Shown one piece after another: positions 60,736 through 63,637 of a stretch of 64,000 nt of DNA. The notes under the pieces were generated by a model, which was given only the letters and a program-made list of their open reading frames with translations, was not told the origin of the DNA and did no database searches. Every line of letters begins with the position of its first letter. The first letter of the stretch is position 1. The position numbers and the translations under genes were made by a program. Source of the stretch: Pedobacter riviphilus (lineage in GTDB: Bacteria; Bacteroidota; Bacteroidia; Sphingobacteriales; Sphingobacteriaceae). The stretch spans positions 930,001 to 994,000 of the forward strand of contig NZ_CP061171.1 in the NCBI RefSeq assembly GCF_014692875.1, written 5' to 3'.

Positions 60736-60915
60736 TTAAGTGTCGGTTTTGGGTTGATCATGCAGAATTTCTTCATCGATCTCATTAAGCTGTTCATTAT
60801 AAAGCCGGTCTGATTCTGCCTTACAATGTTCATAATCATCTAATTTTTCGCAGGAAGTGTTTCCGTGGATCTCGAAAAAATCCCTGATGGATGGATAATC
60901 AAAATAAACTGACAT
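60736..60915 (-). CDS. 59-residue acidic protein downstream of the SAM-I riboswitch
   Basis: An ATG at 60915 opens 59 codons ending at 60736. The product is soluble and acidic with two Cys (GNTSCEKLDDYEHCKAESD) and a helical C-terminal part. No family is recognised. It starts 10 bp after the stop of the 24-codon leader ORF and is followed 47 bp later by the DUF4833 gene. Coding is supported by the compact gene spacing and by its position behind a riboswitch rather than by homology. Confidence 0.55.
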   Translation of the reverse strand: MSVYFDYPSIRDFFEIHGNTSCEKLDDYEHCKAESDRLYNEQLNEIDEEILHDQPKTDT

Positions 60916-60925
60916 ATTATTAAGT

Positions 60926-61000
60926 TTAGGTTACCAATTTGAAGGGGATGGCCATTGATTGTTCGCCGAAAACAGTTAAGAAATCTGCTTTCAAACTCAT
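60926..61000 (-). CDS. 24-codon leader ORF starting inside the SAM-I riboswitch
   Basis: The ATG at 61000-60998 sits in the 3' strand of the closing helix P1 (GATGAG). The product is 24 residues with no Cys and one internal Met. With SAM bound, P1 forms and the start codon is paired, so translation would be off. It ends 10 bp before the 59-aa gene. It could be a regulatory leader peptide or a chance frame; the coincidence with P1 favours the former. Confidence 0.4.
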   Translation of the reverse strand: MSLKADFLTVFGEQSMAIPFKLVT

Positions 61001-61091
61001 CTTTTCTGCCATTGCAGAAGGAATTAGCACCTTGTTACACAACAGGTTGCTAAGACATCAAAGGGCCATTCCCTACGTCTTTCTTGATAAG
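60996..61091 (-). promoter_or_regulatory. SAM-I (S-box) riboswitch
   Basis: On the minus strand the S-box core is clear: CTTATCAAGA opens helix P1, GTAGGGAATGGCCCTTTGATG carries the conserved GGGA-TGGCCC-TGA core, CTTAGCAACC and GGTGCTAATTCC form P3 and its junction, TTCTGCAATGGCAGAA is P4, and GATGAG closes P1. All expected elements are in order. It binds S-adenosylmethionine. There is no following terminator, so the control is probably translational or through an alternative pairing: GGCCATCCCC downstream (60944-60953) can pair at 9 of 10 positions with GGGAATGGCC in the core. Confidence 0.92.
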
Positions 61092-61168: not shown

Positions 61169-61404
61169 ATATGGTCTTTTCAAGTAGCTTTAGATTCACT
61201 TTTTGAAGAAGACTCAGCAAAAGTAAAAATTAATTACTATAATTTCTATAGAAATAGTAGTTTTTTTGTGAGATTTCTGATTGTTGAGCTTGTTTTATGG
61301 TGTAATTTATTGGTTTTTAGTTGTTTGTGTATTTAAAATAAATTGCAGGTAGATCCTGAAACAAGGTGAGGATGATGATTACTCGCATACAACTCGCCAT
61401 CGTG

Positions 61405-61546: not shown

Positions 61547-61724
61547 ATTCGCCTATACCTATCATCACTACTCTTTTGCTTTCTTGTTAAGATACCTGCC
61601 TCTCCGAACGGCCTAATGCTACGCCCTTGCATAATTCCCTCAGTCCAATTTCTTCTTTAATTGTAAATTATATTTCTGTAAATCAATTGTTTACTGATAA
61701 AGTCTATAAAATCTATAGGAATAC

Positions 61725-61755
61725 TTGTTTAAATTAAACGAAGTTTATACCTTTA
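61725..61755 (+). promoter_or_regulatory. Promoter reading into the structured intergenic region
   Basis: TTG at 61725-61727 is followed after 20 bases by TACCTTTA (61748-61755), a one-mismatch TAnnTTTG box. Spacing fits the Bacteroidota consensus. Transcription would begin near 61762, about 170 nt before the paired region and 565 nt before the next coding gene. Confidence 0.45.
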
Positions 61756-61930
61756 CAAAAAAAATAATAGTTCACTAGCAAATTTACGTTCAAGATGAAA
61801 CTCCGCAGACAACCTCAGCCATATCCCCTGATCAATTATTCAGATCAGTATAACTGCTGTTGCCGCTAATATAAGCTAAGATACAGATCACCTGTTAAAG
61901 GTTTTCATTCAGATATTCTTATTTAAAAAT

Positions 61931-62074
61931 CCTGGTACCCCGGGGCCTTTTGATAGAATATTATGGTGGTCATGTATTTAAGTCAATAAGTTGCCGGGGT
62001 ATCAGGAACAGCCCAAACTAATCACCACCACTAGTTTAGGTTATTACTCTAATTAATTCACCACCATTAATTAG
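61931..62074 (+). ncRNA. Candidate structured RNA with matching loop motifs
   Basis: Hairpin A pairs CCTGGTACCCCGG (61931-61943) with CCGGGGTATCAGG (61994-62006) over 13 bp with a single G-U. Its tip ATG-GTGGT-CAT exposes GGTGGT (61965-61970). Hairpin B has stem AAACTA/TAGTTT (62015-62037) and hairpin C a 9-bp stem CTAATTAAT/ATTAATTAG (62049-62074). Loops of B and C both contain TCACCACC, complementary to GGTGGT. This could form alternative loop-loop contacts. It is either a small RNA or a leader element of the downstream gene. 6S-Flavo RNA is an alternative to test. Confidence 0.5.
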
Positions 62075-62326
62075 TTGATTTATACAGAAGAAGGGAGAGT
62101 CAGTACTCGTTGAACTTCTAGCAACTTTCCATAGGAAAAAGTGCTCAAACTGATCTAGCAATAGATTATAAATTAACCAATAACAAGTAAACTCACGTTT
62201 CCTGTTAGGGATTTCATTAAAAGCATAACAGTTGTTTAAACAGCCTGTATCTGTGCTATATGGTTTTCTGTGGGAGAAATCGTGCCTTGTTATTAAAAAC
62301 TCTAAAACGATAGTGTTTAACTAATA

Positions 62327-63637
62327 ATGATGATTATGAAAATGAAAATTTCCTCAAGAATTGCATGCCTAACCACCTCAGTCCTGTTACTGGGAGGCAT
62401 TGCATCCGCCAAGGTGGCAAAACCATTCCCAAAAGAAGGGATTTGGAGGGGCGAGTTTAATGTAAGCGAATCAAAAGTGCCATTTAACTTCGAATTAAAA
62501 GGTAAAAATCCTCAAACGGCCATCTTAACTTTAATTAATGGCTCCAGACGTGATGATTTTCATGTAGAAAGACGTGGTGATGATTCCATCTATGTAAAAA
62601 TGAATACCTACGATGCTGCTTTGGTGGCAAAAATAGAAACTGATGGCACTTTATCGGGCGAATACCGCAGTCTGGTACCTGGTTTCAGGGGCAATTCACT
62701 TCCCTTTGTAGCAGAGCATGGTAAAAATTACCGCTTTGTAGAACCTGGAAAAGATATCGCACCAAAACACAATATCTCTGGCAAGTGGGAAATAAAAACC
62801 TATACCAAAGAAGCTGTACCAGCATCTATTGCTTTATTAAAGCAGAATGGAAATAAACTTACCGGAGTAATCATGACTGTTGTGGGCGATACACGGGAGC
62901 TTGAAGGTACTGTACAGGGTGATGAATTTGAGTTGTCTGGCTTTACCGGACCAAGTCCTTTTATTGTAAAAGGAAAAATTAACGACGATAACAGCATTAC
63001 TGGTGAACAGGGTTTCGGAATTTATAAAAACCTGAAATTTGATGGCCAGCGCAACGAAAATGCCGAGCTTCCTGATCCTTACAAGCTTACTTTTCTTAAA
63101 GAAGGTTATAAAAAACTTGATTTTACCTTTCCAGATCTAACAGGAAAAAATGTTTCCTTAAGTGATGATAAATACAAAGGTAAGGTCGTAATTATTGAAA
63201 CGATTGGTACCTGGTGCCCAAATTGTACCGATCAAACGGTTTTTCTTTCGCCATGGTTTAAAAAGAACCAAAAACGAGGCGTGGAAGCCATTGCGATTGG
63301 TTTCGAACAAAAAGATGATCTCGAATATGCCAAATACACGTTGGGTAAATTGAAAGAGAAATATGGTATCACTTACGATATCCTGTTTGGTGGCATTGCC
63401 GATAAAAAAGTAGTGGCTGAAAAACTGCCTGCGCTAAATAAATTCATTGCTTTTCCAACAACCATCATTATCGATAGAAAAGGAAATGTAAGAGAAATTT
63501 ATACCGGCTATACAGGCACCGTAACCGGAAAATACTTTAACGATTACGAAACCAAATTTAACAAAGTGCTCGACGAGCTGATTGCTGAACCAGTACCCGA
63601 AAAACTGGCTTCAGCAGAAACACTAAAAAGTAAATAA
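62327..63637 (+). CDS. Exported TlpA-family thioredoxin-like protein
   Basis: The 436-residue protein has a signal peptide ending near GGIASAK, an N-terminal beta-rich domain (about 35-255, GIWRGEFNVSESKVPFNFEL) of unknown role, and a C-terminal TlpA/thioredoxin domain (about 265-420). The CxxC active site lies in IETIGTWCPNCTDQT, followed by AIAIGFEQKDD and the cis-Pro region KFIAFPTTIIIDRKG. It should work as a periplasmic thiol-disulfide oxidoreductase. ATGs at 62330, 62336 and 62342 are alternative starts. A close paralogue follows 79 bp downstream, with a hairpin between. Confidence 0.85.
   Translation: MMIMKMKISSRIACLTTSVLLLGGIASAKVAKPFPKEGIWRGEFNVSESKVPFNFELKGKNPQTAILTLINGSRRDDFHVERRGDDSIYVKMNTYDAALVAKIETDGTLSGEYRSLVPGFRGNSLPFVAEHGKNYRFVEPGKDIAPKHNISGKWEIKTYTKEAVPASIALLKQNGNKLTGVIMTVVGDTRELEGTVQGDEFELSGFTGPSPFIVKGKINDDNSITGEQGFGIYKNLKFDGQRNENAELPDPYKLTFLKEGYKKLDFTFPDLTGKNVSLSDDKYKGKVVIIETIGTWCPNCTDQTVFLSPWFKKNQKRGVEAIAIGFEQKDDLEYAKYTLGKLKEKYGITYDILFGGIADKKVVAEKLPALNKFIAFPTTIIIDRKGNVREIYTGYTGTVTGKYFNDYETKFNKVLDELIAEPVPEKLASAETLKSK

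Follow-up and report, generated by a model that had tools for sequence, protein, structure and literature searches.

A SAM-I riboswitch directly behind an accessory tRNA-Cys gene: a candidate sulfur-responsive composite operon in one Pedobacter clade

S-boxes (SAM-I riboswitches) of the genus Pedobacter lie mostly upstream of metH, metY and SusC-type genes. The 5.8 Mb, single-contig genome of Pedobacter riviphilus contains six S-boxes in total, and one of them is followed by genes of another kind, which raises the question of what this riboswitch controls and to which signals the unit responds. Throughout, the window denotes the whole stretch of 64,000 nucleotides that was analysed (contig NZ_CP061171.1, positions 930,001 to 994,000); coordinates are those of the window, and the operon is read from its minus strand. 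The aptamer (61093-60994) matches the Rfam SAM model RF00162 over the full length of the model (positions 1-108 of 108), with 79.6 bits against a gathering score of 44.4 and an E-value of 4.3e-17 for the window, which bears out the complete S-box core of the original prediction; relatives scanned with the same model scored 69.0 to 84.1 bits. As had also been claimed, the genes behind it are not known methionine or SAM genes: the outputs are a gene for a 59-amino-acid (59-aa) protein with two Cys residues (60915-60736) and a gene for a DUF4833 protein with an N-terminal hydrophobic helix (60688-60107). The aptamer is a known one and the arrangement is new, namely its place behind an accessory tRNA-Cys gene, an AUG within helix P1 and unusual output genes.

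The 59-aa gene was collected from 30 sources: the window, 19 of 145 genomes of the genus and 10 named contigs that encode relatives of the protein, all ten from Pedobacter. One of these, L064 (36% identity), is without the start pattern used and was dropped from the leader set. The remaining 29 sources yielded 18 distinct leaders, 17 with an S-box, recognized in every case by the covariance model, and one without (L016 = L063, Pedobacter chinensis). Covariance model scans placed an S-box in 17 of the 19 genus genomes with the 59-aa type and found none in L016/L063 or in L064. L016/L063 has the tRNA-Cys and the 59-aa gene, without the S-box and without the strict operator described below. The arrangement is confined to one Pedobacter clade, a much narrower range than the Sphingobacteriaceae-wide one proposed at the outset.

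The main feature of the locus is one that the original prediction lacked. In the window, a tRNA-Cys gene (61168-61098; RF00005 51.9 bits; called tRNA-Cys by ARAGORN) ends 4 nt before the aptamer, and the gap is 4-25 nt across all 17 distinct S-box loci. The consensus of the Bacteroidota promoter -7 element is TAnnTTTG. An element of this type (TACTTTTG, 61218..61225, minus strand) precedes the tRNA in the window; it recurs about 55-60 nt upstream of the tRNA in 17 of 17 loci, and none was found between the tRNA start and the aptamer in any of them. Because the sole promoter element lies upstream of the tRNA, the tRNA, the S-box, the 59-aa gene and the DUF4833 gene look like a single transcription unit. 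A pattern scan of the minus strand from 60736 to 60688, between the two protein genes, found no terminator-like site, the scan being a weak one (3 sites per 2.5 kb vs 1.8 in shuffles).

Used as a query, the tRNA gave two matches in its own genome, the accessory copy itself and a housekeeping copy (L269:485-558). The window tRNA folds as a tRNA-Cys with a GCA anticodon but lacks the housekeeping-type G1-C72 end pair, having instead an A1/G72 mismatch followed by U73. These ends define the accessory class (A1, with G1 in one member, G72 and U73), whereas the housekeeping copies of the genus have G1-C72 (20 of 20). The 15 distinct accessory sequences have 19 variable columns and identities down to 83%; the A1/G72 mismatch has therefore been kept while the rest of the molecule changed. 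The strict A1/G72-class pattern occurs in 38 of 301 family genomes, all of them in Pedobacter (1 of 25 genera). Six genomes (G034, G025, G012, G006, G031 and G153) also have a related tRNA whose anticodon is CAU and whose ends are those of the accessory class; the operator-like repeat described below precedes some tRNAs of either kind.

Some accessory tRNA loci have further features of their own. In 15 of 42 (L246, L247, L249-L255, L257, L258, L308, L311, L314 and L315), a conserved TTAGATCTAAG stretch lies 3' of the tRNA; a terminator-like hairpin accompanies it in the loci read by eye, and it is perhaps a small RNA. A short-chain dehydrogenase gene and a PhyH gene follow the accessory tRNA at L270 (G034) and L248 (G020). 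In G034, where the accessory tRNA has the CAU anticodon and is oriented away from a cysteine desulfurase S-box, a fatty acid hydroxylase gene is found further on. A weak match to the small-protein profile (E 4e-4; G113:C5:491531-491721) lies about 40 nt 3' of an accessory tRNA-Cys.

The operator-like repeat is an inverted repeat of the form CTAY-N7-RTAG. In the window it lies upstream of the tRNA (CTACTATTTCTATAG, 61260-61246) with an overlapping second copy (CTATAGAAATTATAG, 61251-61237), both on the minus strand, and all 17 distinct S-box loci have the strict form ahead of the tRNA. Within 200 nt upstream, the strict form was found at 26 of the 42 distinct accessory tRNA promoters vs 0 of 20 housekeeping tRNA-Cys promoters of the genus, and a looser form at 41 of 42 vs 1 of 20. 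When the 42 were split by type (150 nt), the repeat was present in 8 of 8 with an S-box, 16 of 29 other GCA tRNAs and 2 of 5 CAU tRNAs. The repeat was absent (0 of 11) from a first control set of G1-C72 tRNAs, seven of which belong to other families. We also scanned 450 nt upstream of S-boxes whose classes were set by sequence motifs and clusters. Family models gave a name to one example per class (metH, O-acetylhomoserine sulfhydrylase, SusC and MetX; the example of the cysteine desulfurase class is NifS-like and below cut-offs, and that of the TlpA-like class is AhpC-TSA). The repeat preceded the S-box in this operon (6/6) and in TlpA-like units (6/6), in 19 of 30 SusC/other sites, all 19 having a copy at position -58 or -59 relative to the aptamer, in 3 of 9 cysteine desulfurase-like sites, in 1 of 33 metH sites (at -411) and in 0 of 32 metY sites, compared to 4.2% of base shuffles. 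Among the 13 small-protein loci outside the tRNA unit, it lies 86-121 nt upstream of the gene in all 12 loci of 53-aa paralogs and is absent at L064.

Counted over the whole genome, the matches are less distinctive. A 21-mer operator pattern had 2 matches in the window vs 0.01 expected from shuffles and, with up to 3 mismatches, 4 in the whole genome vs 1 in the control; this was the sole pattern above control. A 19-mer with up to 2 mismatches gave 128 genome-wide matches vs 173 in the reversed control, and the operator combined with a -7 element showed no excess (10 vs 11). The case for an operator rests on its position at S-box, tRNA and paralog promoters, not on its genome-wide number, and we regard the repeat with moderate confidence as a candidate sulfur-linked operator. 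The shared DNA signals suggest that the whole unit is responsive to sulfur supply.

CymR-type Rrf2 proteins are cysteine regulators, and the Pedobacter Rrf2 gene (G000:C1:1059849-1060295) stands beside sulfate assimilation genes, at the head of a run that comprises sulfite-reductase-like, siroheme synthase, cysH, cysD and cysN genes. The encoded protein exceeds the cut-off of the Rrf2 superfamily model (112.7 vs 73.3). CymR (NCBIfam NF047409) is the best among the specific models, but the score of 87.2 bits is below its cut-off of 195, and the repeat is a putative target. In the genome of P. riviphilus the repeat also lies upstream of a tetrapyrrole methylase gene about 11 kb from the Rrf2 gene; the Rrf2/sulfate gene run itself has no strict operator at its head. 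In open-licence PMC we found no paper on Rrf2 and sulfate assimilation in Bacteroidetes. The Rrf2 protein is a candidate reader of the repeat, and we name it with low confidence.

How might SAM act on the genes behind the aptamer? The 3' strand of P1, GATGAGT (60995..61001), is invariant in 17 of 17 loci and holds an ATG (61000-60998); the predicted position of the first start codon within helix P1 holds at every locus. In a comparison set of 116 S-box sites from 35 genomes (110 fetched and six own), GATGAG occurred in the P1 strand of 6 of 6 S-boxes of this operon vs 0 of 110 others, three of which had an ATG at the P1 edge. The ORF that starts here (61000-60926; 24 codons in the window, none of them for Cys) had been put forward as a conserved gene and proved not to be one: its length varies from 6 to 53 codons across the 17 loci with no fixed frame, and it stops before the 59-aa gene or overlaps it out of frame.

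Two pairings follow from the aligned leaders. The strands GAAAGCAG and CTGTTTTC (60968..60992) form a hairpin directly after the aptamer, with 97.8% of cells paired in 17 sequences and two pairs changed on both sides. A candidate anti-aptamer strand (GGCCATCC, 60946..60953), with the consensus GGCYAUCC, is complementary to the aptamer core (61072-61064); 93.4% of its cells are paired and none of its pairs changed on both sides, because the core strand is invariant. This pairing occurs in the free minimum-energy fold of the window sequence. For the whole structure, the shuffle controls were mixed: of 500 shuffles, 0 reached the observed fraction of paired cells and 1 the covariation score, whereas as many further pair types turned up in 47 and as many pairs with changes on both sides in 89. 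In free folding, the mean pair probability of P1 did not exceed 0.13 in 16 of the 17 sequences and came to 0.54 in L061, and the leader ATG had an unpaired probability of 0.32-0.84; in the aptamer fold, it was the constraint that forced the ATG to pair. The start region of the 59-aa gene is about equally open in both folds (change in mean unpaired probability -0.08 to +0.11). Since P1 is open in free folding and the 59-aa start is unchanged between the folds, the ATG in P1 appears to be the best candidate for the control point, acting through coupling or polarity.

The order and conservation of the parts, the lack of a second promoter element, the shared repeat, and the conserved ATG and hairpin can be read from the sequence. 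What we infer beyond this is one transcript, SAM binding, the OFF direction, coupling, a CymR-like Rrf2 reader, tRNA processing and the functions of the genes. Together these make up our explanation: in one Pedobacter clade, the parts would form a sulfur-responsive composite operon with a single promoter that the CTAY-N7-RTAG operator overlaps and that would drive the tRNA-Cys, the SAM-I riboswitch, the 59-aa protein and the DUF4833 protein. RNase P and RNase Z would presumably excise the tRNA and leave an mRNA beginning 4-25 nt before P1. When SAM is scarce, GGCYAUCC in the leader would pair with the aptamer core, P1 would be open and its AUG exposed, and ribosomes loading at this AUG would sustain expression of the genes downstream. 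When SAM is abundant, the aptamer would form and bury the AUG in P1, and the 59-aa and DUF4833 genes would be silenced through lost translational coupling or Rho polarity. The tRNA would respond to the operator alone and not to SAM. Because the unit begins with the accessory tRNA-Cys under a shared operator-like promoter, SAM is probably one of two inputs. Taken with all of its steps, we consider this explanation modestly probable. We count against it the genome-wide number of operator plus -7 element combinations, which is that of the control (10 vs 11), the lack of a strict operator at the head of the sulfate cluster, and L016/L063, which lacks the S-box and the strict operator. Further points against it are the unchanged accessibility of the 59-aa start between the folds, the constraint that imposes the ATG pairing, the variable length of the leader ORF, and changes on both sides of pairs that were no more frequent than in shuffles for the whole structure (89/500).

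The conserved hairpin directly 3' of the aptamer would suit transcriptional control, in which SAM binding stops transcription after the aptamer, through Rho or a weak hairpin, and the presence of an ATG in P1 is an accident of inheritance. An S-box in the same genome (L001) is followed by a hairpin with a long T-run. The pattern scan found no terminator-like site in the present leader, however, and GATGAG is kept in 17 of 17 loci and absent from 110 other S-boxes, which common descent could partly explain; on balance we judge this mode of control somewhat unlikely. SAM might instead be an ON signal, if the SAM-free fold ties up the leader near the 59-aa start and formation of the aptamer frees it. 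In the free minimum-energy fold, the P1 strand UUAUCAA does pair with UUGGUAA (60937-60931) near this start. Yet the start is about as accessible in one fold as in the other, the UUGGUAA strand is altered in several species, and S-boxes usually repress, so that an ON switch seems quite improbable.

The short distance between tRNA and aptamer (4-25 nt) leaves room for the idea that the tRNA is part of the sensor, with charged or uncharged tRNA-Cys altering aptamer folding in cis and one RNA integrating cysteine and SAM. According to an excerpt of PMC7270179, the expression platform of a Xanthomonas SAM-I riboswitch binds uncharged tRNA-fMet. Here the gap varies in length, and processing would part the tRNA from the aptamer, which makes such a sensor very improbable. 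Lowest of all we rate the chance that the S-box drifted behind the tRNA without a regulatory effect on the two genes: although the arrangement is confined to one clade and L016/L063 manages without an S-box, the aptamer core is invariant over the 17 loci while other parts of the leader vary. The composite operon with its control point in P1 remains our preferred explanation.

Both output genes are conserved. Comparison of the window with each of the other 16 distinct S-box loci gave dN/dS values of 0 to 0.11 for the first 43 codons, and of four further pairs three gave 0.03, 0.06 and 0.11 and one was uncomputable. By these ratios the 59-aa protein is real, conserved and under purifying selection, in line with the small gene that had been predicted. 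Its description as a protein with two Cys stands for the window ORF, not as a hallmark of the family, some members of which lack the Cys. The family has two branches, one of 59-63 aa, mostly from this operon, and one of mostly 53-aa proteins, and M-S-x-Y/H-F-x-Y-P-x-I is common to both with few exceptions. A profile of both branches found members in 57 of 145 genus genomes (E <= 0.01), the weakest of which are doubtful. The predicted structure of the 59-aa protein is one helix with a loose N terminus.

The proposed synteny of this gene with DUF4833 also held: a DUF4833 motif follows the 59-aa stop codon at 92-170 nt in 17 of 17 distinct S-box loci. In L016, no DUF4833 motif stands at that place; the gene is in another part of the locus, preceded by GtrA-like and other genes. 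The window protein matches PF16117 with 168.2 bits against a gathering score of 23.1, and its structure model (mean pLDDT 81.8) has a helix at residues 6-32 followed by strands. Elsewhere in Pedobacter, DUF4833 forms part of a fusion with a CDP-alcohol phosphatidyltransferase, next to which a fatty acid hydroxylase and a PAP2 protein are encoded, or comes after such a transferase and a GtrA gene. Since these neighbours recall the inositol-lipid cluster of Bacteroides thetaiotaomicron, which has CDP-diacylglycerol-inositol phosphatidyltransferase and GtrA genes (PMC9246714, in excerpt), analogy suggests a lipid or envelope role for DUF4833. No paper on DUF4833 was found in open-licence PMC.

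Compared to known systems, the aptamer is an ordinary SAM-I (RF00162), full-length and well above the gathering score, but it lies directly behind a tRNA gene and its outputs have no known role in sulfur metabolism. SAM-I riboswitches whose P1 contains the ribosome binding site, and which attenuate translation directly, are described in a passage of PMC2258182. The likeness is a translation start signal in the 3' strand of P1; here, however, the putative signal is an ATG that opens a short ORF, variable in length, and not the start of the conserved gene. In Xanthomonas campestris, as far as the same excerpt of PMC7270179 goes, a SAM-I riboswitch linked to a sulfur amino acid tRNA senses uncharged tRNA-fMet in trans through its expression platform, whereas the tRNA-Cys gene in Pedobacter lies in cis. 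Mycobacteria have attenuators with poly-cysteine leader ORFs (Canestrari 2020, as mentioned in part of PMC13236596), which resemble the Cys-rich leader ORFs at neighbouring Pedobacter S-box units but not the leader ORF of the tRNA-Cys/S-box operon, which has no Cys codon; a leader ORF with CC was found at none of the 6 sites of this operon. In the open-licence PMC literature on riboswitches and tRNA, we found no report of an S-box fused to a tRNA gene. The arrangement was likewise not found in titles and abstract openings of open-licence PMC papers on SAM riboswitches with Bacteroidetes or tRNA-Cys, on accessory tRNA-Cys or on cysteine leaders, nor among the matches listed for P1 start codons and for SAM riboswitches or TonB in Pedobacter and relatives.

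The neighbouring units are of interest in their own right. A TlpA-like unit (61704-63637, plus strand), oriented away from the tRNA-Cys operon, consists of an operator-like repeat (CTATAAAATCTATAG, 61704-61718), a leader ORF ending NCCCR (61795-61869), a second S-box that the original prediction also lacked (62077-62174; RF00162 54.2 bits) and the gene for a TlpA/AhpC-TSA-like protein (62327-63637). At TlpA-like S-box sites, the upstream ORF with CC and the repeat are each present in 6 of 6. The metY S-boxes have a short downstream ORF with CC in 29 of 32 cases vs 0 of 33 for metH, often ending CMCCCI plus one residue, and these sites, including L005, likely combine a cysteine attenuator in tandem with the SAM riboswitch. 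A short ORF ending MRMCCCCA lies behind a repeat and upstream of a sulfatase-modifying-factor-like gene (L282:1565-1657). On the reverse strand of L281, a repeat is followed by a short ORF ending YLSCCC, a hairpin with a T-run and then a SusC-like gene. At L001, the S-box of the SusC-type receptor has behind it, besides the T-run hairpin mentioned above, a leader ORF that ends in SAYFRMRMPC, and an MPC ending occurs in 4 of 30 SusC/other sites.

A wider reading would be that Pedobacter has a second, sulfur-regulated tRNA set, consisting of the accessory tRNA-Cys and the CAU tRNA, which would share the A1/G72 mismatch and the operator-like repeat, with a role outside bulk translation, for example in sensing tRNA charging or as an aminoacyl donor in a non-ribosomal process. 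One clade would have made such a tRNA-Cys part of the transcript of a SAM riboswitch, alongside a new small-protein family and DUF4833, so that one RNA would report on cysteine and SAM. We put this forward as a speculation that is, as a whole, unlikely to be correct. If the composite operon is real, a riboswitch and a tRNA gene would share one promoter and answer to different signals, and the supply of tRNA-Cys would be part of sulfur control. The operator and the riboswitch would then be two testable inputs that tie a small-protein family and DUF4833 to sulfur metabolism.
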